Positions 12,290 to 38,498 of a stretch of 41,071 nucleotides of DNA are shown piece by piece; position 1 is the first letter of the stretch; the number at the start of each line of letters is the position of its first letter. The DNA lies in assembly GCF_030538285.1 (NCBI RefSeq), contig NZ_JAUNUG010000024.1, forward strand, positions 1 through 41,071, given 5' to 3'. Under the pieces are notes generated by a model that did no database searches, was not told where the DNA came from, and was given only the letters and a program-made list of their open reading frames with translations. The position numbers and the translations under genes are program-made. Source of the DNA: Corynebacterium sp. (lineage in GTDB: Bacteria; Actinomycetota; Actinomycetes; Mycobacteriales; Mycobacteriaceae).

Positions 12290-12290
12290 A

Positions 12291-12319
12291 CCCCCCTGCA
12301 TACCTGTAGTGCAGGGGGC
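12291..12319. promoter_or_regulatory. Hairpin between purE and the aldehyde dehydrogenase gene
   Basis: CCCCCTGCA (12292-12300) and TGCAGGGGG (12310-12318) form a perfect 9-bp stem with a 9-nt loop. On the minus strand the G-rich arm lies directly before the dehydrogenase ATG and contains its likely ribosome site. The hairpin could end purK-purE transcripts, hide the ribosome site, or be a DNA operator. Confidence 0.6.
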
Positions 12320-22757: not shown

Positions 22758-23879
22758 TTATTCGCGAGAGTATCTCCAAGCGGGACTGAAAAGTTGCAGT
22801 GCCAGAACACCGATGAGCCCTGCCGCTGGCAACCAGAATGACCACGTCATCGCGCCAAGGTAGACCGGCAACATCACGACAGGTGTGAACGAAGAACCAT
22901 AGAAGCGGAAGGCCTGGACAGTGGAGATCAACGAGTTTCCACCCGGCGCGCGCAACACCGCGATATTGATGCTTGTCTGGATTCCCTGGGCAGACACGAC
23001 CGCGAGCGCCCAGCACGAAGCAACCAGCCAGGGGGCGGGTACCACCGGCAGCAACGCCACGGCGAAAGCGCCTGTCAGGCAACTGATCGTCAGGACTCGT
23101 TTGCCCCCATATCGGTCAGCGAGCCCACCAACCGTGCGTGCAAAGATAAACGCTGCGAGCCCGCCGCACATCACAACCAATCCGGTGCCTGCTTCATCGA
23201 TGCCGAAACGGTCTCCGATGCTGAGCGCGGTGAGGATGCCGATACCGATGATGGAAAAGCCGATCATCAGGCAGGTGACCATGTGAATGGCAGCGGGCCA
23301 CCACATGATCTTTTGCTGCCTATTCTCGTTGCTGGCAGGCGGTGCAATATCTGGAACTCCGATGAGGAGAATCCACAGACCGGCTGCGATGACGATCAGG
23401 TACACCAGTTGCCAGTCGACCCGGGCAGCCAATCCTGAGATCAGCGGGGCTGTGAATAGTCCTAACGCCTGCATCGCCGCGTAAGTACCGAGCGAGGATC
23501 CGAGCCGCTCCGGAGGACTGAGATGATGCAGCATGACCTGGAAAACAGGGAGCGTGAACGCGTTAGCCAGCCCCAAGAGGAGGAATCCCATGAGGAACTG
23601 CGGCCAGGTATCCGCGAGCAAACAACCCGCCGCCCCGAGGAGTGTCACCGCGTACGCGGTGAGAATTACCCTCCGGGGCCGAAACTTACGGACGAACCGG
23701 GTGGAAACCAGCATCACGGTCGCGAACGGGAACAAGTAGACAGACATGGTGAATGCAGCCTGTTCGAGCGAGATATCGAAGGTGGATGCCACATTAGGGA
23801 GAATGACTGCGATGGACTGTCCCGCGAACGGCCCGACGAAGCCGCCGAGAAAGACCGTCGACAACTGAAGCTTTCTCAT
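22758..23879 (-). CDS. MFS transporter of the catabolic block
   Basis: A 373-residue major facilitator with about 11-12 helices. The motif-A type loop appears between helices 2 and 3 as STRFVRKFRPRRV and again in the second half as GGLADRYGGKRV, the clearest family mark. The short length and the acid-free first helix (MRKLQLSTVFLGGFVG) are like drug or metabolite exporters of the DHA1 kind. The ATG at 23879 follows a GGAGG by 13 nt, which is long. It follows the glutaryl-CoA dehydrogenase gene on the same strand after a 126-bp gap that carries a large RNA hairpin. Direction and substrate of transport are unknown. Confidence 0.85.
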   Translation of the reverse strand: MRKLQLSTVFLGGFVGPFAGQSIAVILPNVASTFDISLEQAAFTMSVYLFPFATVMLVSTRFVRKFRPRRVILTAYAVTLLGAAGCLLADTWPQFLMGFLLLGLANAFTLPVFQVMLHHLSPPERLGSSLGTYAAMQALGLFTAPLISGLAARVDWQLVYLIVIAAGLWILLIGVPDIAPPASNENRQQKIMWWPAAIHMVTCLMIGFSIIGIGILTALSIGDRFGIDEAGTGLVVMCGGLAAFIFARTVGGLADRYGGKRVLTISCLTGAFAVALLPVVPAPWLVASCWALAVVSAQGIQTSINIAVLRAPGGNSLISTVQAFRFYGSSFTPVVMLPVYLGAMTWSFWLPAAGLIGVLALQLFSPAWRYSRE

Positions 23880-23916
23880 AATGGTCTTGGTTCCTCCCTC
23901 CCCAGGGACCTCAACT

Positions 23917-23962
23917 GCGAGAACCAGGCCGCGGGCTCTGCACCCGCCGACCTGGTCCTCAC
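23917..23962 (-). promoter_or_regulatory. Long RNA hairpin before the MFS gene
   Basis: The arms 23917-23936 and 23942-23962 fold in the minus-strand RNA into about 20 pairs with one bulged G and a 5-nt loop. Four of the pairs are G-U, possible only in the minus-strand transcript. It stands 37 nt before the MFS ATG and 43 nt after the dehydrogenase stop, with no U run behind it, so it could be an attenuator, a processing site or a weak terminator. Confidence 0.6.
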
Positions 23963-24005
23963 ACATCGGTCCATTGACACTTGTCCCCGTAACTCCCGCT
24001 GCGGT

Positions 24006-25220
24006 TTAACGGAAAGCCGCTTCACCGGTCAGCTTCTGGCCGAGGATGAGAGTGTGCACCTCGTCAGTGCCCTCATAGGTACGGACAGATTCGAGGTTGT
24101 TGGCATGGCGCAACGGCGAGTAGTCGACGGTAATACCGTTACCACCGAGAATGGTGCGGGCTTCGCGGCAAATCTCAATCGCGGCGCGACAATTCGCGAG
24201 CTTGCCCAGTGAGATCTGGTGCAGCTCCAGTCGGCCTTCGTCCTTCGCGCGTCCCAGCTCCAGGGAAAGCAGCTGCCCCTTATTGAGTTCCACGGTCATG
24301 TCGGCCAGCTTCTTCTGCGTCAGCTGATAGGCGCTGAGTGGCTTACCGAACTGCATACGCTGCGCGGAGTAGTCAATGGCTGCCTCGATCGAGTCACGGG
24401 CTGCCCCCATCGCACCCCAGGCGATGCCGTAGCGAGCCTCATTCAGGCACATGAACGGCCCCTTGAGGCCGGGATTCTTGGGCAGCAGCGCATCCTCGTC
24501 GAGCTGCAGGTCGCGGATACGGATGTCGCACTGGAGGGAGGCACGCATCGACAGCTTGCCGGTGATCGCCTCCGCCTCAAACCCGGGGGTGTCGGTCGGG
24601 ACGATAAAGCCGCGGACGGTGTGGCCCTGGCCTTTCCCACTGTCATCGATGCCAGCGGCACGCGCAGACTCCGCAGAGACTTTGGCCCAGATAATGGCCA
24701 CACCCGCGACCGTAGCCAGACCGATCCAGCGCTTCTCGCCGTTGAGAATCCAGCTGCCGTCCTTCCAGGTGGCCTCGGTAATCATCGTGCTCGGGTCCGA
24801 GCCGGCGGTGGGCTCGGTCAGTCCGAAACAGCCGATGATCTCACCGGACGCCATCTTGGGCAGCCAGTGTCCCTTCTGTTCCTCGGATCCGTGCTTGTGG
24901 ATGGCGGACATCGCCAAAGAGCCCTGGACAGAGACAACCGTACGCAGACCTGAGTCACCTGCCTCGAGCTCCTGCATGGCGATTCCATACTCGACGGAGC
25001 TGTGGCCGCCACAGCCGTAGCCATCGAGGTGCATGCCGAACAGTCCGAGCTCCGCCATCTCCGGCAGCAACTCCAGAGGAAGGACGGCCTCGTCGTACCA
25101 CTTCCCAATGTTTGGACGGACGCGACGGTCGACGAAGTCCGCGACCCTATCGCGGACGGCAATTTCAGTCTCACTGAGCCGGCCTTCGATGTTCATCAGA
25201 TCGGTGACGTGCTTGGGCAT
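24006..25220 (-). CDS. gcdH: Glutaryl-CoA dehydrogenase
   Basis: A 404-residue FAD-dependent acyl-CoA dehydrogenase closest to glutaryl-CoA dehydrogenase (glutaryl-CoA to crotonyl-CoA plus CO2). It has FGLTEPTAGSDPS, ARYGIAWGAMGAA, QRMQFGKPLSAYQLTQKKLADM, ILGGNGI and the catalytic base E383 in TYEGTDEVHTLILG. R93 (SGLRTVVSVQ) matches the arginine that holds the free carboxylate of glutaryl-CoA in the human enzyme, the best sign for the substrate. AAAGGAG lies 7 nt before the ATG. Divergent from the TAXI-TRAP operon; the other two family members in the window lack this arginine. Confidence 0.88.
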   Translation of the reverse strand: MPKHVTDLMNIEGRLSETEIAVRDRVADFVDRRVRPNIGKWYDEAVLPLELLPEMAELGLFGMHLDGYGCGGHSSVEYGIAMQELEAGDSGLRTVVSVQGSLAMSAIHKHGSEEQKGHWLPKMASGEIIGCFGLTEPTAGSDPSTMITEATWKDGSWILNGEKRWIGLATVAGVAIIWAKVSAESARAAGIDDSGKGQGHTVRGFIVPTDTPGFEAEAITGKLSMRASLQCDIRIRDLQLDEDALLPKNPGLKGPFMCLNEARYGIAWGAMGAARDSIEAAIDYSAQRMQFGKPLSAYQLTQKKLADMTVELNKGQLLSLELGRAKDEGRLELHQISLGKLANCRAAIEICREARTILGGNGITVDYSPLRHANNLESVRTYEGTDEVHTLILGQKLTGEAAFR

Positions 25221-25244
25221 GCCATCTCCTTTGGGGTTGTTGTG

Positions 25245-25262
25245 AGCGAGGGCCCCCTCGCT
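25245..25262. promoter_or_regulatory. Inverted repeat in the gcdH leader
   Basis: AGCGAGGG-CC-CCCTCGCT, a perfect 8-bp inverted repeat 25 nt upstream of the gcdH ATG, flanked by TGTGAG and CTCACA further out. It could be a repressor operator or, with only 2 nt between arms, less likely an RNA hairpin. Confidence 0.45.
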
Positions 25263-25536
25263 GGGTGATGCCCCTCACATAACCGTGTATCGGCTTCGTC
25301 TTCAACGATTCCCCGCCTCGAAAGCTTTTTATGCGCGTTTGATAACAAATCCGAGACCCCGCACACATCAATACTTCATCCCGCCAACCCCCCATAAGAC
25401 GCCAGGAACCCATGCAGGAAAGTTCGTGGTCCACGTAAATCATTGCGACCCCACCCCCGACCCACCACCCCTCTACCCCCTCCAGTCCCGAACTAGCTGT
25501 ATATACGACCGCTTTCATCCGCGTAACGACAGGGAT

Positions 25537-25562
25537 TATTGCGCAATAGGAAATAATTGACG
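25537..25562 (+). promoter_or_regulatory. Palindrome and -35-like element before the TAXI-TRAP operon
   Basis: TATTGCGCAATA (25537-25548) is a perfect 12-bp palindrome; with the T before it, it also fits the LysR pattern T-N11-A. TTGACG, five of six bases of a -35 consensus, begins 9 bp later at 25557. No good -10 box at 17-18 bp was found. Confidence 0.4.
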
Positions 25563-25650
25563 CAGACTATGGCCTACGCCACTTTTATGTCCCAGAATTG
25601 CCCGCATCACCTCAACGCACAAAATCCATCACAGAACGCAAGGAGACGAC

Positions 25651-26814
25651 ATGGCCCTCAATCTGAACCGGCGCCAGTTCCTCAAGGGTCTGGCCTTCGC
25701 GGGTGCGGCTGCAACGCTTGGCGCATGCGCCAAGCCGGTCGAAACCACGGTCGCGGGCATGCCTGGTCGCATGGTGTGGACCACGTACCCGGTTGGTACA
25801 GGCACCTACAACGACATCGCGGCAGTCGCCTCGATGATCACAACTCGCTCCGGCGCACAGGTTCGCCTGATGACAGGAGACACCGGCATTGGCCGCATCG
25901 CTCCACTGATCTCCGGCGTCGCTGATTACGCACGCGTCGGCGACGAATCCCTGTACTCGTTCGAGGGAGACTACGAATACACATCTGAGGTCTGGGGCCC
26001 TCAGCCCGTACGCCAGCTGTGGACTCCGCCGGGAAGCTACGGAATGGCGGTACTCAAGAACTCCGGGATCGACACCGTTCACGATCTGCGCGGCAAACGC
26101 CTTCCGTATCTGTTGGGTATGGAGCCGACCAACCGCAAGATCGACGCCATCGTCCAGCTCGGTGACATGACCCTAGATGATGTGACCCTCGTGCCCATCG
26201 CCTTCTCTGAGCAGACAGAAGCTCTGAAGACTGGCCACCTTGATGGTATCTACACCAACTCTGTCGGCGCCGGTGTCGAGGAGCTCAACACCCGCTATCC
26301 GATCCACTGGCTTGATTTCGGAGGTCAGACTGAGGCACAGAAAGAAGTCTGGGCAGATCTCATCCCGCTCGGCAGAGTCGGCTCGACCTCTGAGGCCGTC
26401 GGAATGGGGCCAGATGATTCCGCCGAGCTCATGCAATTCTCTCTCGCCATGCTCACCCGCGCGGATGTCCCGGAAGAGGAAGTCTACTCGGTCGTCAAAC
26501 TCATGCACGATCACCACGGCGACTTCAAGAACTCCACCCCGGATGCCAAGTTTTTCGCTATCGACCAGATCATTCTCGATCCCTTGGTTGTCCCTTTCCA
26601 CCCAGGAGTTGTTCGACTCCTCGAGGAGAGCAACCTCTGGACTCCCGATCTTGATCGCCGTCAAAAAGCACTTCTTGAGCGCGAAATCCTCATGCAGGAG
26701 GAATGGCCCAACTTCTGGGACCGCCATAAGAGTTCGGAGGATCCTTCCACCGAGTGGCGTACCTGGAAACAAGAGAACCTTCCCGCACTTCCCCCAATTA
26801 ACGACACCGTCTGA
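25651..26814 (+). CDS. TAXI-family TRAP solute-binding lipoprotein
   Basis: A 387-residue extracytoplasmic receptor of a TRAP transporter, TAXI subfamily. The N-terminus carries both a twin-arginine signal (NRRQFLKG, R7-R8) and a lipobox, LGAC, with C26 as lipidated cysteine. That fits a Tat-exported lipoprotein, suitable for a Gram-positive cell. TAXI marks: TYPVGTGTYNDIAAVASMI, LMTGDTGIGRIAPLISGVADYARVGD, and LGDMTLDDVTLVPI with the following HLDGIYTN. AAGGAG is 6 nt before the ATG. The permease gene follows after 14 bp. In this cluster the ligand is probably a dicarboxylate such as glutarate, by context only. Confidence 0.88.
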   Translation: MALNLNRRQFLKGLAFAGAAATLGACAKPVETTVAGMPGRMVWTTYPVGTGTYNDIAAVASMITTRSGAQVRLMTGDTGIGRIAPLISGVADYARVGDESLYSFEGDYEYTSEVWGPQPVRQLWTPPGSYGMAVLKNSGIDTVHDLRGKRLPYLLGMEPTNRKIDAIVQLGDMTLDDVTLVPIAFSEQTEALKTGHLDGIYTNSVGAGVEELNTRYPIHWLDFGGQTEAQKEVWADLIPLGRVGSTSEAVGMGPDDSAELMQFSLAMLTRADVPEEEVYSVVKLMHDHHGDFKNSTPDAKFFAIDQIILDPLVVPFHPGVVRLLEESNLWTPDLDRRQKALLEREILMQEEWPNFWDRHKSSEDPSTEWRTWKQENLPALPPINDTV

Positions 26815-26828
26815 GAAAGGAGCTGAAC

Positions 26829-28862
26829 ATGTCCACCACCATCACCGCCAATGGCAATCACACGGCCCCGGAAATGCCAGCCGCAGCACCTCCCACCATC
26901 CTTGAACACAACCCGCGGCTCAGCCCGTTCTGGAAAGCTTTCATCGCCATCCTGGCTGCCGTCGGCATCGGCGGCACCATCAACCAGGTCTTCTACCTCA
27001 ACGCCTTTGGACTGGCGATCCAGACGAACGCATTCCTGTACTTGATGGCGGCGTGTTTCGTGCCGATCGTTTTCATCACCACACCAATTTCTAAAAAGGC
27101 GATCTCCAATCGTGGCGGTGTCCCTCTCTACGACGTGGCACTCGCGCTGCTCTTTATCGGTGTCTCCGTCTGGTTTGCCTCCCGCGCCGAGGACATCACA
27201 CTGTTCGGTTGGTCAATGGTTGCTCCGACCTACGCCACGGTGATGAGCTACGTCTACTGGGCGCTTGTCCTGGAGGCGCTGCGCCGCGCCGCCGGCATTA
27301 TCGTCGCCGGTCTCGCATTCCTCGTTTCTATCTATCCCCTGTTTGCCGGTGAGATCCCCATCGGGGTCCTGCAGGGAATCAGCTACGACATGAACACTCT
27401 GGCCCAGCAGCACGCGATGGGTTCTGAGTCGATTCTCGGCTTGCCCCTGCAGACAGCCGGCACCATTCTCGTTGGATTCCTGGCATTCGGTGTCGTGCTC
27501 CAGCACACCGGTGGCGCCGCCTTCTTCAACGATCTCGCCATGTCGATTTTCGGCCGCTACCGCGGTGGCACAGCCAAGGTCTCGGTCGCCAGCTCCGCAT
27601 CCATGGGCATGATGTCCGGTTCCGCTGTCTCCAATGTACTGACTACGGGCCCCATGACCATTCCGGCCATGATCAAGAATGGATTCTCGGCGCGAACCGC
27701 CGGTGCCGTCGAAGCAACTGCTTCCTCCGGTGGTTCCATTACCCCTCCGATCATGGGCGCCGCAGCTTTCCTGATGGTGTCCTTCGCCGGCGTTCCGTAC
27801 ACGCAGATCATCATCGCGGCGACCATCCCTGCATTCCTCTACTTCTTCGGCATTTTCATGCAGATCGATGGTTATGCCGCTCTGAAGGGACTTGCCGGAA
27901 CCCCGCGCTCCGAACTGCCCCGTTTTCTCAGAACCCTGATCAGCGGTTGGCCATACATTTTCGCCTTCGCACTCCTCACGGTTCTTCTCCTCACGACGCC
28001 ATCGGAAGCCCAGGTTCCTTTCTGGGTTGTCCTTGCCCTACTGATCATCGGAATCATCACCCCGAAGCACAAGTTCGGTATCCGCGAGATTTACGACGTT
28101 CTGGTCGACCTGGGAATCTCCCTCGGCAAACTCTTCGCCACCATTGCTGGAGTTGGCCTGATCCTGGGCGGCCTGACCGCCACTGGTGTCGCCCTTTCAA
28201 TCTCCCGAGACCTCATCGCTGCAGTCGGCGAGAATGTCATTCTCATCCTCATCACCGGTGCGATTGCCTGTTTCGTCCTGGGTATGGGCCTGACAATCTC
28301 CGCAGCCTACGTCTTCCTGGCCATCGTCATGGTCCCCGCGCTCATTGCCCTGGACGTCAATGTTTTCGCGGCGCACCTGTTCATCATCTACTGGGCCTCC
28401 GTTTCCTATATCACTCCTCCCGTCGGGCTAGCTGCTTTCGCTGCGGCTGGAATTTCCAAAGACTCACCCATGGGCACCTCGGTCGAAGCCATGCGATTGG
28501 GAGCGGTCAAATACATCGTTCCCTTCGGTTTCGCCCTCAACCCGGCACTAGTTGCTCAATCATCACTCCCTGAGGTTCTGCTGGCTGGTGGCCTCTCGGT
28601 CATCGCAGTCTTTGCACTAGCGGCCTCCTTCTCCGGCTGGATTCAGTTTGTCGAGGTGAAGGCAGGAATTATCTCACGAGTGCTCCTGGCCGTGGGCGGG
28701 TTCATGGTTTTCCTGCCGCAGTACTCCATCACATTCACCGGTATCGGCATCGTCGTCGCGGTCATGGCCTTTGAGAGGCTCCGCAACTCGCGTAAAACTC
28801 ATCACCCCTCTCGGGAAGAGTCCACCACTGATGCTCCTGACACAGCCGCACAGCACGTCTAA
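26829..28862 (+). CDS. Fused TRAP transporter permease, TAXI-associated type
   Basis: A 677-residue membrane protein with about 16-18 helices, in which the small 4TM (DctQ) and large 12TM (DctM) parts are fused, as usual for TAXI systems. The transport core has VASSASMGMMSGSAVSNVLTTG and TASSGGSITPPIMGAAAFLM, and its mirrored second half has GMGLTISAAYVFLAIVMVPAL and YWASVSYITPPVGLAAFAAA. Sodium- or proton-driven uptake is the known mechanism. AAGGAG is 6 nt before the ATG. Next gene, 24 bp on, begins the beta-oxidation set, so import and degradation are co-transcribed. Confidence 0.93.
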   Translation: MSTTITANGNHTAPEMPAAAPPTILEHNPRLSPFWKAFIAILAAVGIGGTINQVFYLNAFGLAIQTNAFLYLMAACFVPIVFITTPISKKAISNRGGVPLYDVALALLFIGVSVWFASRAEDITLFGWSMVAPTYATVMSYVYWALVLEALRRAAGIIVAGLAFLVSIYPLFAGEIPIGVLQGISYDMNTLAQQHAMGSESILGLPLQTAGTILVGFLAFGVVLQHTGGAAFFNDLAMSIFGRYRGGTAKVSVASSASMGMMSGSAVSNVLTTGPMTIPAMIKNGFSARTAGAVEATASSGGSITPPIMGAAAFLMVSFAGVPYTQIIIAATIPAFLYFFGIFMQIDGYAALKGLAGTPRSELPRFLRTLISGWPYIFAFALLTVLLLTTPSEAQVPFWVVLALLIIGIITPKHKFGIREIYDVLVDLGISLGKLFATIAGVGLILGGLTATGVALSISRDLIAAVGENVILILITGAIACFVLGMGLTISAAYVFLAIVMVPALIALDVNVFAAHLFIIYWASVSYITPPVGLAAFAAAGISKDSPMGTSVEAMRLGAVKYIVPFGFALNPALVAQSSLPEVLLAGGLSVIAVFALAASFSGWIQFVEVKAGIISRVLLAVGGFMVFLPQYSITFTGIGIVVAVMAFERLRNSRKTHHPSREESTTDAPDTAAQHV

Positions 28863-28886
28863 GCACTTCAAAGAAAGGACACACCC

Positions 28887-29675
28887 ATGTCGAACGATCT
28901 GATCCTCCGAAATGACACCGATGGCGTCGCTGAACTGACCATCAACCGCCCCGAAGCCATGAATGCCATGAGCCGGCCCGTCATCGACCGTCTCAATGAG
29001 CACCTGGACGATATTGACGCTGACTCTTCCGTTGACGTTGTCATCATCACCGGTGCAGGCGACAAAGCCTTCGTGGCCGGGGCTGATATCAAGGAACTGT
29101 CTCAGCGTGGCCCCCTGGATGGGCTCGAAGCCTACATGCAGCGGACTTACGACCGTCTCCAGTCTTTTTCCCGGCCACTCATCGCGGCCGTCAACGGATA
29201 CGCTTTCGGCGGGGGCAACGAACTGGCGTTGGCTTGCGACATTCGCGTCGGTTCGACCAACGCTCAGTTCGCACTTCCCGAGTCGGGCCTGGGCATCCTT
29301 CCGTCCGCCGGTGCCACTCAGCGCCTTCCCGGAATCGTCGGCCGCGGATTGGCCGCAGACATGATTATCACTGGGCGAAGAATTGACGCTGCAGAAGCTC
29401 GCAACTGCGGTCTGATCACTTACCTGGTTGACCCTGAAGAGCTTTTGACGGAAGCCCACAAAGTAGCTCAACGAATCCGTCGCAAAGGTCCTTTGGCAGT
29501 TTCCCTGATCCGTCAGCTTCTGGTGCGTGGCAGCCGAGTCGATCACGAAACCGGAATCCTGTTGGAACGTCTGGCCCAGTCCGTGTTGTTTGCCTCCGAG
29601 GAAAAACGGGAAGGCACTGCTGCGTTCATTGAAAAACGTCATCCGGATTTTCACTCCGCCCGACACGACCGCTAA
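28887..29675 (+). CDS. Enoyl-CoA hydratase
   Basis: A 262-residue crotonase-fold enzyme. Both acids of true hydratases are present: the first in GGGNELALACD (about residues 108-118) and the second in LPESGLGILPSAGATQRLP. The oxyanion loop is seen in AFVAGADIKEL. It would add water to crotonyl-CoA, the product of glutaryl-CoA dehydrogenase, or to other short 2-enoyl-CoAs. AAAGGA stands 9 nt before the ATG. Length is standard. It lies between the transporter and the 3-hydroxyacyl-CoA dehydrogenase gene in the same operon. Confidence 0.92.
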   Translation: MSNDLILRNDTDGVAELTINRPEAMNAMSRPVIDRLNEHLDDIDADSSVDVVIITGAGDKAFVAGADIKELSQRGPLDGLEAYMQRTYDRLQSFSRPLIAAVNGYAFGGGNELALACDIRVGSTNAQFALPESGLGILPSAGATQRLPGIVGRGLAADMIITGRRIDAAEARNCGLITYLVDPEELLTEAHKVAQRIRRKGPLAVSLIRQLLVRGSRVDHETGILLERLAQSVLFASEEKREGTAAFIEKRHPDFHSARHDR

Positions 29676-29711
29676 TTAAGCACCCATCCCCTTTAGTTTC
29701 GAAAGGTACTC

Positions 29712-30584
29712 ATGTCCTCCCTCTCCTCCATCAACCACATCACCGTCATCGGTTCCGGCACCATGGGATCCCAGATCGGGATGGTCGCAGCTCTGGCCGG
29801 TTTTTCCACCACGATCGTTGACATCGCCGACGACGCCCTCGACCGGGCGGAAGGCCAGCTGAAATCTCGCATGGATCGGGATGTGCAGAAGGGCCGGCGT
29901 TCCCAAGCCGATGTTGAAGCCGCATTCGAGCGTCTTAGCTTCTCTACCGACCGTGATGCAGTGGTGGCCGGCACGGATTTTATCATCGAAGCCGCAATCG
30001 AGGATCTGACTATCAAGCGGGAACTCTTCGCAGCCCTTGATGAAAAGGCCCCCGCCCATGCCATCCTGGCCACCAATTCCTCCAACATCGTCTCCTCCAA
30101 GATCGCCGACGCTACCTCCCGTCCGGAGAAAGTTTGCAATATGCATTTCTTCAACCCGGTGTTGGTCATGAAGGCCGTCGAGGTGGTCAGCCACCCCGGA
30201 ACCTCGGAAGAAACGATCGAGACCACAGCTGCACTCGCCGAGGCAATGGGTAAAAACGTGGTTCGACTGCACAAGGAAATCCCGGGATTCGTCGCCAACC
30301 GCCTGCTGGCTGCCATTCGAAAGGAAGCACTCCAGCTCTACAGCGACGGTGTCGCATCCTTCGAGGACATCGATGTCGCCGCCAAGACCGCTCTCGGCCA
30401 CCCCATGGGCCCCTTCGAACTCATGGACCTGGTCGGTATCGATGTTGCCTACCTCATCCGCATGGCCGAATACGAACAGACCGGAGATCCGGAATCTCTG
30501 CCAAACCCTGAGCTGAAGAAGCTCTACGACGAGGGCCGGTACGGACGCAAGACCGGTCGTGGTTGGTACGACTACAGCGATTAA
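29712..30584 (+). CDS. 3-hydroxybutyryl-CoA dehydrogenase
   Basis: A 290-residue single-function 3-hydroxyacyl-CoA dehydrogenase of the Hbd/PaaH type. The NAD-binding loop GSGTMGSQIG starts at residue 15, the catalytic histidine is in CNMHFFNPV (about 145), and the C-terminal domain has IPGFVANRLL, EDIDVAAKTALGHPMGPFELMDLVGIDV and KTGRGWYDY. It would oxidise 3-hydroxybutyryl-CoA to acetoacetyl-CoA. GAAAGG lies 7 nt before the ATG. Confidence 0.93.
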   Translation: MSSLSSINHITVIGSGTMGSQIGMVAALAGFSTTIVDIADDALDRAEGQLKSRMDRDVQKGRRSQADVEAAFERLSFSTDRDAVVAGTDFIIEAAIEDLTIKRELFAALDEKAPAHAILATNSSNIVSSKIADATSRPEKVCNMHFFNPVLVMKAVEVVSHPGTSEETIETTAALAEAMGKNVVRLHKEIPGFVANRLLAAIRKEALQLYSDGVASFEDIDVAAKTALGHPMGPFELMDLVGIDVAYLIRMAEYEQTGDPESLPNPELKKLYDEGRYGRKTGRGWYDYSD

Positions 30585-30641
30585 GCCCTCCCCACACCCC
30601 ACCGTCACACAACTTTCATTCCCGATTCCACGGAGACAACC

Positions 30642-31862
30642 ATGAGCACTTCCCCGCAGCTTTCCGACGTCACCGAGCATCCCGACTACCTGCTTCTCGA
30701 CGCTGATTTCAGCGACGAGCAGCGCGCCCTCCGGGACAAAGTGCGTGCATTCGGCCAAGAGCATGTCCTGCCGATCATCAACAACTATTGGGAGCGCGCC
30801 GAGTTCCCCTACGAAATCCTCGATGCACTGGCTGATCTCGGCTTGGCCGGCGGAATGATCCAGGGTTATGGCTGTCCTGGTCTCGGGCGTCTGGAAAACG
30901 GGCTCCTGACCCGTGAACTGGGTCGAATTGACGGTTCTGTGGCTACCTTCTTCGGTGTCCATTCCGGGCTCGGGATGGGCTCCATCAATATCCTAGGATC
31001 GGAGGAGCAGAAACAGCGCTGGCTACCGGATATGGCCAAAATGAAAAAGACGGGCGCTTTCGCGCTCAGCGAACCCACGCATGGGTCCGACTCAGTATCA
31101 CTGGAGACCTCCGCCCGACGCGAAGGAGAATCCTGGATCCTCAACGGGCATAAGCGGTGGATCGGAAATGGTCATGCCGGTGACGTCATTGTCGTGTACG
31201 CGCGTGACGAAGCTGACGGCCACGTCAAGGCTTTCGTCGTCGAAAAGCAGGAAGACGGAGACTACCCGGATGGGTACCGTCCCCAGCCCATTACCGGAAA
31301 GGTCGGTAAGCGCGCGATCCTCCAGGCAGACATCGTCATCGAGAACCTGCGCATTCCGGAGGAGAACCGTCTTGCCAACTGTGACTCCTTCAAGGATGTG
31401 AATCGGGTGCTGGCAGCTACCCGTGGCGGCGTGTCGTGGGAGTCCACCGGTCACGCCATGGCGGGGTTCGAACTGGCCGCCCGATACGCGCTCGGACGCG
31501 AACAGTTCGGTGCTTCCATCGCTAGCTACCAGCTTGTCCAGTCAAAGCTGGCGAACATGCTCGCAGATGTCGTTGAGAATCAGTTGCTGTGTGTGCGAAT
31601 GGCTGAGCTCCAGGAAAGAGGCGAATTCAGCACTCCCATGGCCTCACTCACGAAGATGGTCACGGCACGCAACGGTTTGTCCGTGTGCAGGGAGGCCCGC
31701 GACATGATGGGTGGGAACGGACTACTCCTCGATAATCACGTTGCTCGCCACATGACCGACATGGAGGTGTCCTACACCTACGAAGGCACCGACTCCATGC
31801 AGGCCTTGATCGTCGGCCGGGACATCACCGGCATTTCCGCTTTCACTCGTTCCCGCAAATAG
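30642..31862 (+). CDS. Acyl-CoA dehydrogenase of the catabolic operon
   Basis: A 406-residue acyl-CoA dehydrogenase of the same broad family as glutaryl-CoA dehydrogenase, with FALSEPTHGSDSVS, YALGREQFGASIASYQLVQSKLANML, DMMGGNGLLL and the base in TYEGTDSMQALIVG. The place of the carboxylate-binding arginine is taken by GSVATFFGVH, so it is probably not a glutaryl-CoA enzyme. It is roughly 70% identical by eye to the acyl-CoA dehydrogenase at 37287-38489, and likely acts on a short or branched acyl-CoA. A GGAGA ribosome site stands 6 nt before the ATG. Confidence 0.88.
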   Translation: MSTSPQLSDVTEHPDYLLLDADFSDEQRALRDKVRAFGQEHVLPIINNYWERAEFPYEILDALADLGLAGGMIQGYGCPGLGRLENGLLTRELGRIDGSVATFFGVHSGLGMGSINILGSEEQKQRWLPDMAKMKKTGAFALSEPTHGSDSVSLETSARREGESWILNGHKRWIGNGHAGDVIVVYARDEADGHVKAFVVEKQEDGDYPDGYRPQPITGKVGKRAILQADIVIENLRIPEENRLANCDSFKDVNRVLAATRGGVSWESTGHAMAGFELAARYALGREQFGASIASYQLVQSKLANMLADVVENQLLCVRMAELQERGEFSTPMASLTKMVTARNGLSVCREARDMMGGNGLLLDNHVARHMTDMEVSYTYEGTDSMQALIVGRDITGISAFTRSRK

Positions 31863-31893
31863 ACACAACCTACAATCGCAGAAAGGCTTATCG

Positions 31894-33087
31894 ATGTCTG
31901 AAGCATTCATCGTCTCCGCACTCCGCACCCCGGTCGGACGCTACGGCGGATCACTCTCCTCGGTTCGTGCCGATGATCTTATCGCCCACACAATTCAGGC
32001 TGTTGTCGAAGATTCCGGTATTGACCCGTCAGTCGTCGACGATGTCATTATCGGCAACGCTATTGGGGCAGGAGAGGACAGCCGCAACGTCGCTCGTCTA
32101 GCTTGGCTGCGCGCGGGCTACCCGGACACGATCCCTGGTGTGACCGTCAACCGCCTGTGCGCCTCCGGAATGACCTCTATCGCAATGGCTACCGCGCTCG
32201 TCACTTCCGGCCAGGCCGACATCATCGTCGCCGGTGGAGTTGAATCTATGTCCCGTGCCCCGTGGGTCATCCCCAAGCCCGAAACTGCTTTCGCCAAGCC
32301 GGCGGCCATTCACGACACCGCCATTGGTCCTCGATTCGTCAATCCTGCTTTCCCCGAGACAGTCAACTACTCGATGTTGGAAACAGCTGAGGAAGTAGCC
32401 GAGGTCAAAGACGTGTCCAGGGAGGACGCGGATGCCTTCGCAGTGGAATCCCAGGCACGCGCCCACGCTGCCATCGAGGCCGGTCATTTCACCTCTGAAA
32501 TCACCCCAGTCGAGGTGAAGGGAAGGAAGGGGGCGGTGACGGTTGTCGATTCGGACGAAGGGCCGCGTGCCGGCGTCACGACCGAGCAACTGGCCAAGCT
32601 GCGCCCAGTAGTCCAGGGCGGATCGGTGGTCACTGCAGGAAATTCTTCCTCACTCAATGACGGCGCTTCGGCCGTTGTCGTCGCCAGTGAAAAGGCCGTC
32701 GAAAAGTACGGTCTGCAAGCGCGGGCCCGTGTCGCCGGCGCAGCTGTGGTCGGACTCGCCCCCGAAATCATGGGCATGGGCCCTGTCCCTGCGACCCGCA
32801 AGCTCCTCGAGCGAACCGGTTGGACCCTCGATGAGGTCGATGCGATCGAGTTGAACGAGGCTTTCGCTACGCAATCCCTGGCTTGCATGCGCGAACTCGA
32901 CCTCGATCCAGAGAAGGTCAACGCTTGGGGCGGTGCGATCGCCCTCGGACACCCCCTAGGTTCCAGTGGCGCACGAATCACCATCACTCTGCTCAACCGT
33001 CTTGAGAAGTCGGGTGGAAAGCGTGGCATTGCGACCATGTGCGTCGGATACGGTCAGGGAATGGCCCTGGCAATCGAAACCGTCTAG
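31894..33087 (+). CDS. Acetyl-CoA C-acyltransferase (thiolase)
   Basis: A 397-residue thiolase. The acyl-carrying cysteine is C89 in TVNRLCASGM, the NEAFATQ motif is present, and the two last catalytic residues stand in GGAIALGHPLGSSGAR and in MCVGYGQG. The NRLCASGM form is nearer to PcaF-like 3-oxoadipyl-CoA thiolases than to PhaA types, so the substrate could be acetoacetyl-CoA or a 3-oxoacyl dicarboxylate CoA. GAAAGG lies 9 nt before the ATG. Ends 15 bp before the CoA-transferase. Confidence 0.92.
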   Translation: MSEAFIVSALRTPVGRYGGSLSSVRADDLIAHTIQAVVEDSGIDPSVVDDVIIGNAIGAGEDSRNVARLAWLRAGYPDTIPGVTVNRLCASGMTSIAMATALVTSGQADIIVAGGVESMSRAPWVIPKPETAFAKPAAIHDTAIGPRFVNPAFPETVNYSMLETAEEVAEVKDVSREDADAFAVESQARAHAAIEAGHFTSEITPVEVKGRKGAVTVVDSDEGPRAGVTTEQLAKLRPVVQGGSVVTAGNSSSLNDGASAVVVASEKAVEKYGLQARARVAGAAVVGLAPEIMGMGPVPATRKLLERTGWTLDEVDAIELNEAFATQSLACMRELDLDPEKVNAWGGAIALGHPLGSSGARITITLLNRLEKSGGKRGIATMCVGYGQGMALAIETV

Positions 33088-33102
33088 AAAGGCCCGGAGA
33101 AG

Positions 33103-34569
33103 ATGGTCAACAAAATTGTCGGCTCAGCTATGGAAGCGATCGCTGGTCTCAAAGATGGAATGGTCATCGCCGTCGGTGGTTTCGGACCTGCGGGTGTCCC
33201 CTATGCATTGATCGACGCCGTCGTGGACATCGGAGTCACTGATCTCAGTGTGTACTCGAACAACCCGGGTGGAACCACCAATGACGGGCAACACTTTGGC
33301 CTGGCCAAACTGGTCGACAGCCATCGCATTCGACGTTTCGCCGGTTCCCACATCGGCTATAACAAGAGCTTCGAGGCACAATATCTGTCCGGTGAGATCG
33401 AATTGGAACTCATCCCCCAGGGCAGCCTCTCTGAGAGAATGCGTGCGGGAGGAGCAGGAATTCCCGCCTTTTATACCCCCACCGGCGCAGGTTCTTTGGT
33501 GGCACACGGTGGCATGCCGATCAAGTACGACGAAAACAAGAACGTCATCTCGGTATCGGAGCCCAAAGAAACCCGCACCTTCACCCGCAATGGCGAGAGC
33601 AGGGAATACGTCCTAGAAGAGTCAATCGTCACGGATTTCTCTCTCATCCACGCCTACAAGGCTGATGCGGAAGGCAACCTGGTGTTCCGGACGTCAGCAC
33701 GAAACTTCAATCCTGACGCCGCGATGTGCGGGGCGATCACAGTTGTGGAAGCTGAGCACATCGTCCCAGTTGGAACCCTGGACCCCGATGAGATTCATGT
33801 ACCCGGGATCTACGTCGACAAAGTTTTCCCGCTAACCCATGAGCAGCGGATCTTCAAACCCTTCGGTACCCTTCCTCCGTCCCCAGAGGAGAAGAAGGAA
33901 GAACCCGAGCCCGTTCACTCGCACAACATTGCTGGTTGGAGCCGTGATGAAATGGCCGCAAGAGCGGCCCTGGAGCTTAACGACGGTGAATATGTCAACC
34001 TCGGAATCGGGCTGCCGACCCGAGTGGCTGACCTCGTGCCGGAGGGGACAACCGTGACATTGCAGAGTGAAAACGGCATCCTGAAGATGGGCCCGGCACC
34101 CACTTATTACGAACTCGATCCTGATGTCATTAACGCAGGAAAAGAGTCAGTCACTATTCTCCGGGGCGGGTCCACGTTTGGATCTTCCGATAGCTTCGCC
34201 ATGATCCGGGGTGGCCATATCGACAAAGCCATCCTGGGGTCCCTGCAAGTCAGCGCTGACGGCGACATCGCCAACTGGGGTATTCCCGGTCGTAAAATGC
34301 GCGGAATGGGCGGCGCCATGGATCTCGTGGAGGGAGCCAAAAAGGTCATCGTTCTCATGGAACACCTCGACCCGGAGGGCAAGCCCCGTATTCTCAGTTC
34401 CTGCACGTACCCTCTGACGGGCCGGCAGGTGGTCAGCCGGATTATCACCAACCTTGGCGTTTTTGACGTCACTGATGACGGGCTGGTGCTTATCGAGATC
34501 GCCCCCGGTGTCACCGAGGACGAGATCAGGGAAGGGACCGAGGCTCAGTTCCGCACTGCGCTGAAGTGA
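33103..34569 (+). CDS. 3-oxoacid CoA-transferase, fused A and B subunits
   Basis: A 488-residue family I CoA-transferase in which the alpha half ([23 protein letters not shown], then the SHIGYNK and [24 protein letters not shown] blocks) and the beta half ([24 protein letters not shown]) are joined by a linker rich in P, E and K near residues 264-280. The catalytic glutamate is E323 in QSENGIL. The fused form is like animal SCOT (acetoacetate and succinyl-CoA). Here it could exchange CoA between acetoacetyl-CoA and succinate, renewing the succinyl-CoA used by the other CoA-transferase. Ends 2 bp from the converging LysR gene. Confidence 0.9.
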
Positions 34570-34571
34570 AA

Positions 34572-35462
34572 CTACTCCGAGAACACATTCCGGGCTGCAT
34601 CTATTGCTAGCTGCAGTGCCGGATTTGTGTTTGTTCGGTGCCAGATCATTTGAACATCGAGGTGGTCCTCTGAATCCGCCAGCTCAAGGAAGACCACGTT
34701 ATCGGGCCGCACATTATCCCGGATGGAATCAAGAGTCAGAGCAACACCCATCTCCGCACCAACCAACACAACCAAGGTCCACGAATCGGGTGCCTGCTGT
34801 GCGACACGGGGCACAAAGCCAGCGAACATGGCCAGCGAATTAAGGCGATTCTGCAGAGCCGCGCCAAAACCACCGGGGAGGGTCACCCACCGCTCTTCAG
34901 CCAACTCCTTCATCGACACCGAAGTTCGGTTGGCCAATGGATGAGACTGTGACACGGCGATCATGGCCTTCTCGTGCCCGACGACTAGCGAATTGACCTC
35001 TGCCGGGAGAAAGTCCCATCTCCCGATCGCCAAATCCAAAGACCCGTCGAGGACCTTTTCCAAACCGACGTGAGAGAACTGCGATGACAACAGTTCCAGG
35101 CGGATCCCCGGGCTTCTCCGCCGAATTTGCCGTGCAATTTCGCCTACTGAGCGGTGTACCGACGCACCAGCGAATCCAAGGCGGATCTGTCCCCTTTCCC
35201 CACTGACAGTTTCCTCCACGATGCGTTGAGCTTCCTCTGAGGCGCTCACCAATTGGCGCGCAGGTTCCAGTAACGCCCTGCCTGCCGCGGTCAGGTCGAC
35301 GTGTCGCGTACTGCGTTCGAAAAGCTCAGCGCCCATTTGCCTTTCAAGCTGTTTAATCATGCGGCTCAACGGCGGCTGTGCGATGCGGAGCCTCTCCGCC
35401 GCCCTACCGAAATGCAGCTCTTCCGCAAGAATGAGAAAAGCGCGTGCCTGACCAACCTCCAT
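34572..35462 (-). CDS. LysR-family transcriptional regulator
   Basis: A 296-residue LysR regulator. The N-terminal winged helix is plain (FLILAEELHFGRAAERLRIAQPPLSRMIKQLE, about residues 9-40, then LFERSTRHVDLTAAG), followed by the periplasmic-binding-like effector domain with IRLGFAGASVH and a second lobe to the C-terminus. The type is that of BenM/CatM-like or GcdR-like activators. It is divergent from the CaiB-type CoA-transferase gene with 143 bp between, the usual place of a LysR target, and it likely controls the whole block in response to the substrate or its CoA ester. GGAGAG lies 4 nt before the ATG. Confidence 0.93.
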   Translation of the reverse strand: MEVGQARAFLILAEELHFGRAAERLRIAQPPLSRMIKQLERQMGAELFERSTRHVDLTAAGRALLEPARQLVSASEEAQRIVEETVSGERGQIRLGFAGASVHRSVGEIARQIRRRSPGIRLELLSSQFSHVGLEKVLDGSLDLAIGRWDFLPAEVNSLVVGHEKAMIAVSQSHPLANRTSVSMKELAEERWVTLPGGFGAALQNRLNSLAMFAGFVPRVAQQAPDSWTLVVLVGAEMGVALTLDSIRDNVRPDNVVFLELADSEDHLDVQMIWHRTNTNPALQLAIDAARNVFSE

Positions 35463-35513
35463 GTGCTCTCCTTTCCTGTCCTGAGCTGCGGAAACACTAT
35501 TACTCCAGAGTCA

Positions 35514-35532
35514 TTAATCGACCCCTCATTAA
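35514..35532. promoter_or_regulatory. Candidate LysR site between the regulator and CoA-transferase genes
   Basis: TTAAT-N9-ATTAA, a 19-bp AT-rich dyad in an otherwise GC-rich sequence, with CATTAA repeated on the same strand. It stands 52 bp upstream of the regulator start and 74 bp before the CoA-transferase start. It departs from strict T-N11-A. TTGGAC at 35536 may be the -35 of the CoA-transferase promoter. Confidence 0.4.
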
Positions 35533-35605
35533 GTATTGGACGGTTAGAAATCTACATGCTTCTATGAGGGAAGTCACTATTTTCACCAGAAGAGAGGTTG
35601 CTTCC

Positions 35606-36820
35606 ATGACGCTTGAGCACCCCCGCTCGGACCGCGCCTGCGGACCACTCGATGGGCTCGTGGTCGCAGATTTTTCTCGGGTTCTGGCCGGCCCGTACTG
35701 CACGATGCTCCTCGCCGATCTGGGTGCGACAGTGATCAAGGTGGAGTCACCACAAGGCGATGACACCCGCTCGTGGGTTCCTCCGGCGCGGAATGGGGTG
35801 GGGACCTACTTCCTCTCAGTCAATCGCAATAAGGATTCGATCACACTCGATCTGACAGACCCCTCAGATCTCGAGCTCGCTTACGCCATCATCGATCGCG
35901 CCGACGTTTTCGTTGAAAACTTCAAACCGGGTGGACTCGCCCGTTTTGGCCTGGACGCGGAATCAGTAGCACTACGCTGGCCGCAGCTGATCCACGCCTC
36001 TATCACAGGCTTCGGCACCGGTCCCGGCGCGAGCATGCCCGGTTATGATCTGCTAGTTCAGGCCATGTCCGGCATGATGCATACGACCGGACACCCTGAT
36101 GGGCCTCCGCAGCGTTCCGGTGTCGCCATTTTCGACGTTGTGACTGGTCTCCACACCACAATCGCGATCCTGGCAGCCCTCCAAGAACGAAACTGTTCTG
36201 GACTCGGCCAGCATGTTGCTCTCGATCTTTTCTCGTCGGCGCTCTCTGGCCTAGTCAACCAAACGACTGGCTACGCCGCCTGCGGGAACGAACCTATGAG
36301 GTTGGGTAATGACCACCCCAGCCTCTACCCCTACGGCCCTTTCGCCGCTGCAGACGGTGACATCGTCATCTGCTGCGGCAACGACGCACAGTTTTCACGT
36401 CTGGTTGAGTGCCTCGGAGTGCCAGCCGCGGCCAATGACCCTCGTTTCACGACGATGGAGGTACGGAATGCACACCGCGGCGTTCTCCGACCAATTCTAG
36501 AAAAGGCTCTACAGGCGGACACCGCTGATGGTTGGTTTCAGCGCCTGCAGGAAGCTGCTGTCCCCTGCGCTCCCATCCTCAGTGTGGGGGAAGGCATCCG
36601 CTATGCAGAAAGGCTTGGGCTCACCCCGGTCGTTGAGGCCGGGGAAGGCGAGTCAGCGGTGCCTTTAATTAAGAACCCCATGGCGTTCAGCCGCAGCGAA
36701 ATTGAGTACCCAAAAGCACCACCCGCACTCGGCGCTGACCGTAACTCGATCATCGCATGGCTGCAGTCCACGCCTGCCCTGCATGACCTCGCCCGCCCTC
36801 TAGCCCACTCGAAAGGATAG
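35606..36820 (+). CDS. CaiB/BaiF family CoA-transferase, succinyl-CoA:glutarate-like
   Basis: A 404-residue family III CoA-transferase. Its sequence runs close to human SUGCT as I recall it: LVVADFSRVLAGPYCTMLLADLGATVIKVE, then DDTRSWVPP, YFLSVNRNKDSI, DVFVENFKPGGLARFGL, and the catalytic aspartate D148 in PGYDLLVQAMSGMMH. SUGCT and bacterial GcdG move CoA from succinyl-CoA to glutarate. Start at ATG 35606 with AGAGAGG 8 nt upstream; the frame is open to 35444 but the extra part is in the promoter. Next to a LysR gene as gcdG is to gcdR in pseudomonads. CaiB-like carnitine or other dicarboxylate activity remains possible. Confidence 0.85.
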   Translation: MTLEHPRSDRACGPLDGLVVADFSRVLAGPYCTMLLADLGATVIKVESPQGDDTRSWVPPARNGVGTYFLSVNRNKDSITLDLTDPSDLELAYAIIDRADVFVENFKPGGLARFGLDAESVALRWPQLIHASITGFGTGPGASMPGYDLLVQAMSGMMHTTGHPDGPPQRSGVAIFDVVTGLHTTIAILAALQERNCSGLGQHVALDLFSSALSGLVNQTTGYAACGNEPMRLGNDHPSLYPYGPFAAADGDIVICCGNDAQFSRLVECLGVPAAANDPRFTTMEVRNAHRGVLRPILEKALQADTADGWFQRLQEAAVPCAPILSVGEGIRYAERLGLTPVVEAGEGESAVPLIKNPMAFSRSEIEYPKAPPALGADRNSIIAWLQSTPALHDLARPLAHSKG

Positions 36821-36826
36821 ATCCGC

Positions 36827-37249
36827 GTGTCTACAGCTCCCCTCAACTGCTTCACCACGAATCTGGATGTCCGGTGGTCCGATCAGGACGTCAACGGGCA
36901 CGTCAATAACGCCAACGCCGTCACTTTGCTGGAGGAAGCGCGTGTCCGGGCCAGCATGCACTGGTCTGGTAGCGCTCCAGGCAAGAACAATCCGCGTGTG
37001 GTGCGCGCTATCAACGTCGTTTTCGATGCCGAGCTAGCTCACGCTCAACCATTGTCCGCAAATATCTGGGTCTCCCGGATCGGCGGCACGTCCTTCACTA
37101 TTCAGCACGAGCTCATCCAGAACGACACGGTGTGTGTCACTGCAGAAGCAGTGATCGTCGTCCTGGACCGCGACACTCGAAAACCCGCGGCCATTCCAGA
37201 CCTGCTGCGCACCCAGCTTTCCGACTACTACGCGCCAGCCTCCGTCTGA
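36827..37249 (+). CDS. Hotdog-fold acyl-CoA thioesterase
   Basis: A 140-residue thioesterase of the 4HBT/YbgC type. The active-site pattern is visible near the start: VRWSDQDVNGHVNNANAVTLLEEAR, in which the aspartate of SDQD and the GHVNN turn form the pocket, and the helix follows. It begins with GTG, GAAAGGA 9 nt upstream, 6 bp after the CoA-transferase stop, so it is co-transcribed. It may release CoA from stalled or wrong acyl-CoAs and protect the free CoA pool. Substrate not readable. Confidence 0.85.
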   Translation: MSTAPLNCFTTNLDVRWSDQDVNGHVNNANAVTLLEEARVRASMHWSGSAPGKNNPRVVRAINVVFDAELAHAQPLSANIWVSRIGGTSFTIQHELIQNDTVCVTAEAVIVVLDRDTRKPAAIPDLLRTQLSDYYAPASV

Positions 37250-37286
37250 TCTCCAACCCCACCCCATAGATAAGGAATCCCCCATC

Positions 37287-38489: not shown

Positions 38490-38498
38490 GCAGGACGC

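Follow-up and report, generated by a model that had tools for sequence, protein, structure and literature searches.

The 41,071-nucleotide contig NZ_JAUNUG010000024.1 of Corynebacterium sp. (assembly GCF_030538285.1; hereafter the window) carries at 22758..40703 a conserved catabolic island with its own TAXI-TRAP importer, which is rare in Corynebacterium. The island probably mediates the uptake and β-oxidation of saturated α,ω-dicarboxylates of about C5-C7, possibly longer, with glutarate among them. We favour this range over glutarate alone because loci encoding the TAXI solute-binding protein also carry two acyl-CoA dehydrogenases, termed ACAD2 and ACAD3, and because ACAD3 modules sit in clusters predicted to form adipate or pimeloyl-CoA. 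An earlier sequence-only reading had placed a complete path from glutarate to acetyl-CoA at 22758-37249. Family searches found in this interval the MFS, glutaryl-CoA dehydrogenase (GCDH), TAXI, fused TRAP, hydratase, 3-hydroxyacyl-CoA dehydrogenase, thiolase, LysR, type III CoA-transferase and 4HBT genes, but the block extends past 37249, up to 40703, with ACAD3 and a FadB-like gene. The route from glutarate to acetyl-CoA is indeed encoded, but glutarate alone is too narrow for an island that holds ACAD2/3, a PcaF-like thiolase and a PcaIJ-like transferase; ACAD2 and ACAD3 are superfluous for glutarate.

Three acyl-CoA dehydrogenases of the island

The GCDH gene (24006..25220, minus strand) scores 447.9 bits against the mycobacterial GCDH 3sf6 and 333.7 bits against human GCDH. 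In the alignment it retains Arg94, Glu87 and the Tyr-Glu pair, for which we assume the numbering and residue roles of human GCDH, and in the tree it falls inside the GCDH clade. Judged by these residues, it is a genuine glutaryl-CoA dehydrogenase of the decarboxylating type, and the substrate arginine noted earlier is confirmed.

ACAD2 (30642..31862, plus strand; proposed dicarboxylyl-CoA dehydrogenase) and ACAD3 (37287..38489, plus strand; proposed adipyl/pimeloyl-CoA dehydrogenase) share 75% identity, and the best solved match of both is plant ACX4 (2ix5), with 318.9 and 322.1 bits, respectively. At positions 94/87, ACAD2 has Ala/Gly and ACAD3 has Asn/Ser, compared to Arg/Glu in GCDH. Among the 78 rows aligned, Arg and Glu are kept in 36/36 rows of the GCDH clade, whereas ACAD2/3 form a clade apart, in which the Arg94 position is occupied by Asn in 33 of 35 rows, by Ala in the window ACAD2 and by Cys in its relative from locus 1 of genome G451 (83% identity; G and L numbers are our own handles for genomes and loci). 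TAXI pieces shorter than 180 residues, CaiB pieces below 200 and dehydrogenases below 250 were left out of the trees, hence L057 has no dehydrogenase row. As Arg94 of GCDH is absent from both ACAD2 and ACAD3, they would be unable to bind glutaryl-CoA as GCDH does, and would require a different substrate. These three are all the acyl-CoA dehydrogenases found in the genome (GCDH query, E <= 1e-10). The ACAD3 class is a candidate adipyl/pimeloyl-CoA dehydrogenase family, and the residue aligned with Arg94 tells it apart from GCDH.

Co-occurrence of the TAXI protein with the dehydrogenases

A scan of 242 genomes of the genus revealed TAXI in 12, GCDH (E <= 1e-110) in 59 and ACAD2/3 (E <= 1e-125) in 17. 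ACAD2/3 are present in 9/12 genomes with TAXI against 8/230 others (odds ratio 83, p 7e-10), and GCDH in 10/12 against 49/230 (odds ratio 18, p 1.7e-5), with phylogeny ignored in both tests. A single-sequence TAXI scan of the genome contigs gave no match, and an alignment query gave 24 loci.

The 13 Corynebacterium TAXI loci, with the tandem TAXI pair of G514 counted as one, contain GCDH within the fetched stretch in eight cases and ACAD2/3 in six. One of these eight GCDH genes, that of G347, is a truncated remnant (L012:13945-14331), and the TAXI match of G611 lies in three pieces in different frames (L141:9356-10484); both represent decay of parts of the system. Among 21 TAXI loci of Kocuria, Nesterenkonia, Micrococcus, Arthrobacter and Agilicoccus, some of which end at contig ends, ACAD3 occurs in 20 (in pieces in L057), CaiB in 20 and GCDH in nine. 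From these tallies L053 and L064 were dropped as duplicates of G268 and G249, the Rhodococcus locus (G249/L064) was excluded from both, and L067 (Pararhodobacter, 23% identity) was dropped for giving no TAXI match on a second search. A GCDH match (E <= 1e-60) was obtained in all 26 genome handles searched, of which G249 and G420 are one genome; the match of G347 is ACAD3. Moreover, four Kocuria, one Nesterenkonia and one Arthrobacter have a GCDH outside the TAXI locus, accompanied by its own CaiB paralogue with 47-49% identity to that of the window. The same arrangement of genes is seen again in other corynebacteria and also in Kocuria, Nesterenkonia, Micrococcus and Arthrobacter, which argues that the grouping of these genes is more than chance. 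In G544 and G559 the place of ACAD3 is taken by a different, acryloyl-CoA-reductase-like short-chain dehydrogenase (L143:2623-3780 and L144:7882-9051; ~315 bits against a cut-off of 640).

ACAD3 in cyclohexanone and cyclohexanecarboxylate clusters

In G375, a LysR/CaiB-ACAD3 module shares one cluster with genes for a hydrolase of the Abhydrolase_3 family, a Zn alcohol dehydrogenase, a semialdehyde dehydrogenase and a cyclohexanone monooxygenase that scores 929.2 bits against 6er9. We take these enzymes together to be a cyclohexanone-to-adipate (chn) set; G444 is arranged alike. Compared to the window, the modules of G375 and G444 share 67 and 71% identity in ACAD3, 54 and 59% in CaiB, and 43 and 45% in LysR, respectively, and ACAD3 lies 3-5 kb from the monooxygenase in both. 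At E <= 1e-150 the monooxygenase is found in only 2/242 genomes of the genus, namely G375 and G444, both of which have ACAD3. No GCDH was detected in G375 at E <= 1e-110, matching the prediction for an even-chain path, and the one GCDH of G444 resides in a separate cyclohexanecarboxylate cluster. The cyclohexanone-to-adipate sets with LysR-CaiB-ACAD3 span L038:7499-19696 and L209:5761-17174 of two Corynebacterium genomes.

The cyclohexanecarboxylate clusters of G318, G395 and G444 comprise a ligase with a GCDH domain after it or fused to it, AliB-, BadH- and BadI-like genes, a hydratase, a 3-hydroxyacyl-CoA dehydrogenase and an ACAD3 relative (59-61% identity). In G395, the best NCBIfam matches of the ligase and AliB are cyclohexanecarboxylate-CoA ligase (495.1 bits, below the cut-off of 792.3) and cyclohexanecarboxyl-CoA dehydrogenase (479.1 bits, below 575.35), BadH matches TIGR03206 with 299.9 bits (below 431.2), and the BadI-like gene has marginally better scores with MenB models (357.5 and 334.6 bits) than with BadI (330.0 bits), all under cut-off. 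The cyclohexanecarboxylate path leads through pimeloyl-CoA to glutaryl-CoA. By elimination, the ACAD3 relative would be the pimeloyl-CoA dehydrogenase of these clusters, as it is the sole dehydrogenase left over in the stretch fetched. Natural fusions of ligase-like and GCDH parts were seen at L039:4687-7617 and L040:4306-7242 (976 and 978 residues) of Corynebacterium; at L210:11871-14786 the two parts are adjacent matches, with a GCDH open frame of 984 residues, and the TAXI genomes G451 and G463 have a further GCDH match in a frame of ~995 residues.

A Baeyer-Villiger monooxygenase of PtlE-like type (471-508 bits, under the cut-off of 1100) occurs in 3/171 sampled genomes of the genus (G494, G594 and G438), with ACAD3 ~4-6 kb away by coordinates in all three; one is also present at the ACAD3 locus in both G379 and G514. 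Such monooxygenases were repeatedly seen near the CaiB-ACAD3 module (L212:3493-4965, L036, L146 and L211), and their substrates are perhaps larger cyclic ketones. In addition, a semialdehyde-dehydrogenase-like gene between ACAD3 and CaiB in the TAXI locus of G611 (L141:4598-5986) shares 62% identity with the chnE-like gene of G375. The window itself has a succinate-semialdehyde-dehydrogenase-like gene near purK (10907-12301, minus strand; 440.7 bits, under cut-off) that is 45% identical to the same chnE-like gene and has no link to the island.

The TAXI-TRAP importer and its putative ligand

The proposed Tat-lipoprotein TAXI receptor and fused TRAP permease were both recovered. The TAXI protein (25651..26814, plus strand) scores 234.6 bits with TIGR02122 against a cut-off of 84.35, its Tat signal (TAT_signal) barely exceeds the cut-offs of PF10518 (23.5 bits) and TIGR01409 (23.1 bits), and a Cys is located after the Tat stretch. 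The single fused permease (26829..28862, plus strand) scores 588.7 bits with TIGR02123 against a cut-off of 320.65, and 351.6 bits with DctM. The TAXI gene diverges from GCDH across an intergenic region (25221..25650, no strand) with three short inverted repeats, an arrangement also seen in G451 locus 2 and G463, and this region may serve as a control region common to both genes.

The closest TAXI relative noted, from G451 locus 1, shares 74% identity, and the solved TAXI proteins are remote (best 38.8 bits with a single sequence and 66.4 bits with a profile). Tyr53 and Arg95 are present in 23/23 aligned rows of the window TAXI group. In the profile alignment, which is weak, Tyr53 aligns with a Tyr of TtGluBP, whose Gln78 lies in an insert two positions beyond the invariant Arg95. 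According to the available part of the report on VcGluP (PMC11574862), this protein relies on Tyr45 and Gln93 (Gln78 in TtGluBP), its site is without Arg or Lys, and adipate gave no thermal shift. The few TAXI ligands named to date, in the available parts of two reports, are glutamate, glutamine, pyroglutamate, 2-oxoglutarate and 2-hydroxyglutarate (PMC11574862, PMC12344293). From the sequence and its genomic context, we infer that the ligand of the window TAXI would belong to the C5-C7 diacid class. Among the papers listed in a literature search, judged by title and opening of the abstract and with subscription papers mostly outside it, none describes a TAXI system whose substrate is glutarate, adipate or pimelate.

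CoA-transferases, regulator and neighbouring genes

The island encodes two candidate activating enzymes. The type III (CaiB) CoA-transferase (35606..36820, plus strand; PF02515, 377.2 bits) lies in a long open reading frame at 35444-36820. Its start is likely 35606 and not 35444, because homology sets in at residue 59-67 of the long frame, and it is the only such enzyme in the genome (CaiB query, E <= 1e-55). It had been described as SUGCT/GcdG-like; the type III class stands, but human SUGCT is the fourth-best solved relative (235.6 bits, against 288.7 bits for 4ed9), and, SUGCT not being the nearest relative, sequence does not single the enzyme out as GcdG. Carnitine-type or aromatic use was rejected, as carnitine CoA-transferase is remote (<=65.7 bits) and none of the island genes has a carnitine, benzoate or ring-cleavage family as its best named match.

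In the CoA-TRANSFERASES tree, a quick tree with long branches among the references, the neighbours of the window CaiB are those of G451 locus 2, G463, G611, G544 and G559, followed by those of Kocuria TAXI loci. CaiB proteins paired with GCDH are found in two places: those from four Kocuria, a Nesterenkonia and an Arthrobacter cluster apart (support 93), and those of G379, G594, G465, G460 and another Nesterenkonia fall on the window's side. The window CaiB thus groups mainly with ACAD3-paired CaiB in a wider clade that includes some GCDH-paired ones; as the latter occur on both sides of the tree, CaiB pairing does not settle the substrate.

The fused class I CoA-transferase (33103..34569, plus strand) is PcaIJ/SCOT-like, with 318.3 bits to TIGR02428 and 211.5 bits to TIGR02429, both above cut-off, and is a possible second activating enzyme, for adipate or glutarate. 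For Ralstonia CL21, the available part of the report (PMC12543098) points to a PcaIJ-type transferase for both adipate and glutarate. An AMP-forming acyl-CoA ligase gene divergent from TAXI was observed in Nesterenkonia GX14115 (L044:8180-9736), with similar genes ahead of TAXI in L047 and L048; it is possibly a further activating enzyme.

The LysR gene (34572..35462, minus strand; PF00126 and PF03466) is divergent from the type III CoA-transferase gene and ~9.4 kb off GCDH. The sequence-only reading had likened its position to that of pseudomonad gcdR, which adjoins gcdH in the part of the account available (PMC6667623); this comparison is a loose one. The divergent LysR/CaiB pair recurs alongside ACAD3 in other loci. 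A palindromic T-N11-A motif was found in 3/28 LysR/CaiB intergenic stretches, several of them very short, and in none of the window; being so rare, and absent here, it was not claimed as a common LysR operator.

The remaining β-oxidation genes lie on the plus strand: a short-chain/PaaF-like enoyl-CoA hydratase (28887..29675; PF00378, 217 bits; best NCBIfam matches PRK05809, 254.7 bits, and PaaF, 246.9 bits, both under cut-off), a 3-hydroxyacyl-CoA dehydrogenase (29712..30584; PF02737, 207.5 bits; PF00725, 109.2 bits), a 3-oxoadipyl-CoA (PcaF)-like thiolase (31894..33087; TIGR02430, 524.1 bits, below the cut-off of 597) and a FadB-like fused 3-hydroxyacyl-CoA dehydrogenase/enoyl-CoA hydratase (38499..40703; PF02737, 156.6 bits; PF00378, 81.6 bits; 292.4 bits to the Staph FadB model, under cut-off). 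A 4HBT thioesterase (36827..37249, plus strand; PF13279, 65.9 bits) follows the type III CoA-transferase. Downstream of GCDH, and probably co-transcribed with it, lies an MFS transporter gene (22758..23966, minus strand; PF07690, 121.3 bits), whose relatives in other TAXI loci share 55-58% (G451, G463 and G544), 56% (G611) and 41% (G379 and G594) identity. Minus-strand frames within plus-strand genes, such as 29676-30962, were treated as antisense, and ARAGORN detected no tRNA gene in the window.

Apparent mosaic structure of the island

G451 contains two TAXI loci, separated by ~430 kb, and both have a TAXI-TRAP of their own. Locus 1, comprising TAXI, TRAP, hydratase, 3-hydroxyacyl-CoA dehydrogenase, ACAD2, thiolase and SCOT, shares 74-85% identity with window 25651-34569 in the same order, its SCOT (77-81%) being in two pieces over two fetched stretches. 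Locus 2, also present in G463, is arranged as MFS-GCDH, TAXI-TRAP, LysR and CaiB-thioesterase-ACAD3-FadB, and shares 55-85% identity with the window flanks, but its TAXI is merely 47% identical to that of the window. In the TAXI tree, the window joins G451 locus 1 (support 99), and then G268 (98). Given these matches of the interior to locus 1 and of the flanks to locus 2, the window looks like locus 1 nested within the frame of locus 2, replacing the frame's own TAXI-TRAP. The window LysR is closest to a Nesterenkonia LysR (67%, compared to 62% for G451). The G+C content is 62-68% at 1-22 kb, 58-61% at 22-38 kb and 65% at 38-40 kb, and the low value at 22-38 kb suggests acquired DNA.

We put forward, tentatively and at rather less than even chance, that the first TAXI proteins for C5-C7+ dicarboxylates are those of a distinct subfamily in Corynebacterium, Kocuria, Nesterenkonia, Micrococcus and Arthrobacter, which would bind the acid through Arg95 instead of the Gln of glutamate TAXI proteins, and that the window is a mosaic in which an adipate-tuned module (its own TAXI-TRAP and an ACAD2 with Asn94 changed to Ala) was inserted into the importer slot of a GCDH/ACAD3 odd-chain module, so that both chain parities would be handled.

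Proposed pathway and alternative explanations

Gene content, active-site residues, synteny and co-occurrence were observed, and from them substrates, donor CoA, directions and regulation are deduced as follows. The lipid-anchored TAXI protein would capture a diacid for import by the fused TRAP permease. A CoA-transferase, the type III enzyme and/or the fused PcaIJ-type one, would then form the mono-CoA ester, with succinyl-CoA as the probable donor. ACAD3 or ACAD2 would oxidise adipyl-CoA, pimeloyl-CoA and longer esters, and the hydratase, 3-hydroxyacyl-CoA dehydrogenase and PcaF-like thiolase would finish each turn. Even chains would yield succinyl-CoA and acetyl-CoA, whereas odd chains and glutarate would give glutaryl-CoA, which GCDH would decarboxylate to crotonyl-CoA for the last turn. 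LysR is probably a diacid sensor that drives the type III CoA-transferase operon. In the available parts of the reports, odd-chain diacids of β-proteobacteria go via glutaryl-CoA and GCDH, and GCDH mutants of Ralstonia CL21 fail on pimelate and azelate (PMC12543098); an odd-chain route via glutaryl-CoA is also proposed for Phycobacter, with a TRAP system as the putative azelate transporter (PMC10945470).

Several observations weigh against this proposal. The co-occurrence tests disregard phylogeny, and the thiolase, hydratase and 3-hydroxyacyl-CoA dehydrogenase all score under equivalog cut-offs. Neither GCDH nor ACAD2/3 was found in the fetched stretches of the G514 and G551 TAXI loci, and in G544 and G559 an acryloyl-CoA-reductase-like short-chain dehydrogenase stands in for ACAD3. 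In the G375/G444 clusters, identity is just 31-32% for the hydratase and 3-hydroxyacyl-CoA dehydrogenase, and no hydratase match was seen in that of G444. As G375, G444, G318 and G395 are without TAXI in the genus scan, the TAXI substrate follows through the shared modules only. A glutarate-specific system, in which CaiB activates glutarate, GCDH oxidises the ester and the other dehydrogenases serve unrelated acids, would agree with the intact GCDH residues, with the linkage of GCDH to TAXI in 8/13 Corynebacterium loci (one a remnant), and with the LysR/CaiB pair that adjoins GCDH in G460 and Nesterenkonia L098. It would also fit the CaiB-TAXI-TRAP-SCOT-GCDH-MFS loci of G379 and G594, whose ACAD2/3 lie elsewhere in both genomes, as expected for glutarate alone. 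Nevertheless, we regard it as improbable: ACAD3 is commoner than GCDH in the loci of the five other genera (20/21 versus 9/21), the GCDH outside the TAXI locus in the six Kocuria, Nesterenkonia and Arthrobacter genomes named above has a CaiB paralogue of its own, and two extra dehydrogenases and the PcaF-like thiolase are left unexplained.

It is distinctly improbable that the importer takes up another ligand (glutamate, 2-oxoglutarate, a monocarboxylate, or a cyclic or aromatic acid), with the catabolic genes being chance neighbours or acting on that ligand. The glutamate-type ligands reported so far for TAXI proteins (in the available parts of PMC11574862 and PMC12344293) would favour it. 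The same holds for the likeness of ACAD2/3 to ACX4, which makes monocarboxylyl substrates possible, ACX4 being presumably a short-chain acyl-CoA oxidase. However, the window TAXI is remote from the solved proteins, Gln78 of TtGluBP falls in an insert after Arg95 in the weak alignment, and TAXI is strongly associated with diacid modules. One refinement, which can stand together with the C5-C7+ proposal, posits two tuned systems side by side with their own chain-length ranges, namely an adipate module that runs from TAXI to SCOT and includes ACAD2, and a module for odd chains made up of GCDH, CaiB, ACAD3 and FadB. The two separate loci of G451, and the Ala or Cys of the ACAD2 pair where ACAD3 has Asn, speak for such a division, but it is somewhat unlikely, since the window retains a single TAXI-TRAP, which suggests an overlapping substrate range, and ACAD3 itself occurs in adipate (chn) clusters, so that an even/odd split need not track ACAD2/ACAD3.

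Comparison with known systems

The dca adipate cluster of Acinetobacter baylyi consists of a class I CoA-transferase, an acyl-CoA dehydrogenase, a hydratase, a 3-hydroxyacyl-CoA dehydrogenase, a PcaF-like thiolase and an MFS transporter. The same gene set is found in the island, compared by gene content and not by sequence, and its first five members lie together at 28887-34569, with the thiolase under the PcaF cut-off. Compared to dca, the island also has TAXI-TRAP, GCDH and a type III CoA-transferase, and belongs to a different phylum. The gcoT product of Pseudomonas putida KT2440 is presumably a type III class CoA-transferase. The gcdR-gcdH-gcoT cluster of this strain, as described in the available part of its report (PMC6667623), shares GCDH, a glutarate-type CoA-transferase and a LysR gene with the island, in which LysR adjoins the CoA-transferase rather than GCDH, and which has TAXI-TRAP, a class I CoA-transferase, two extra acyl-CoA dehydrogenases and a full set of β-oxidation genes in addition. 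In the Corynebacterium clusters of G375, G444, G318 and G395, the ACAD3 class is shared, and the chn clusters also have related LysR and CaiB, but these loci are without TAXI-TRAP.

For azeTSL of Phycobacter (PMC10945470, available part), a TRAP transporter is proposed for an odd-chain diacid degraded via pimeloyl-CoA and glutaryl-CoA, as proposed for the island; however, azeTSL is described as a C4-TRAP whose small and large permeases are separate, whereas the island has a TAXI protein with a fused permease. VcGluP and TtGluBP (PMC11574862, available part) have the TAXI family and fused TAXI-TRAP permeases in common with the island, but its TAXI is remote from them in sequence, their key Gln is unmatched in the weak alignment, and VcGluP showed no shift with adipate. 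A conserved TAXI group tied to dicarboxylate β-oxidation provides a short testable ligand list and suggests a new ligand class for TAXI proteins, and strains built for plastic-monomer upcycling would benefit from importers of adipate and pimelate.

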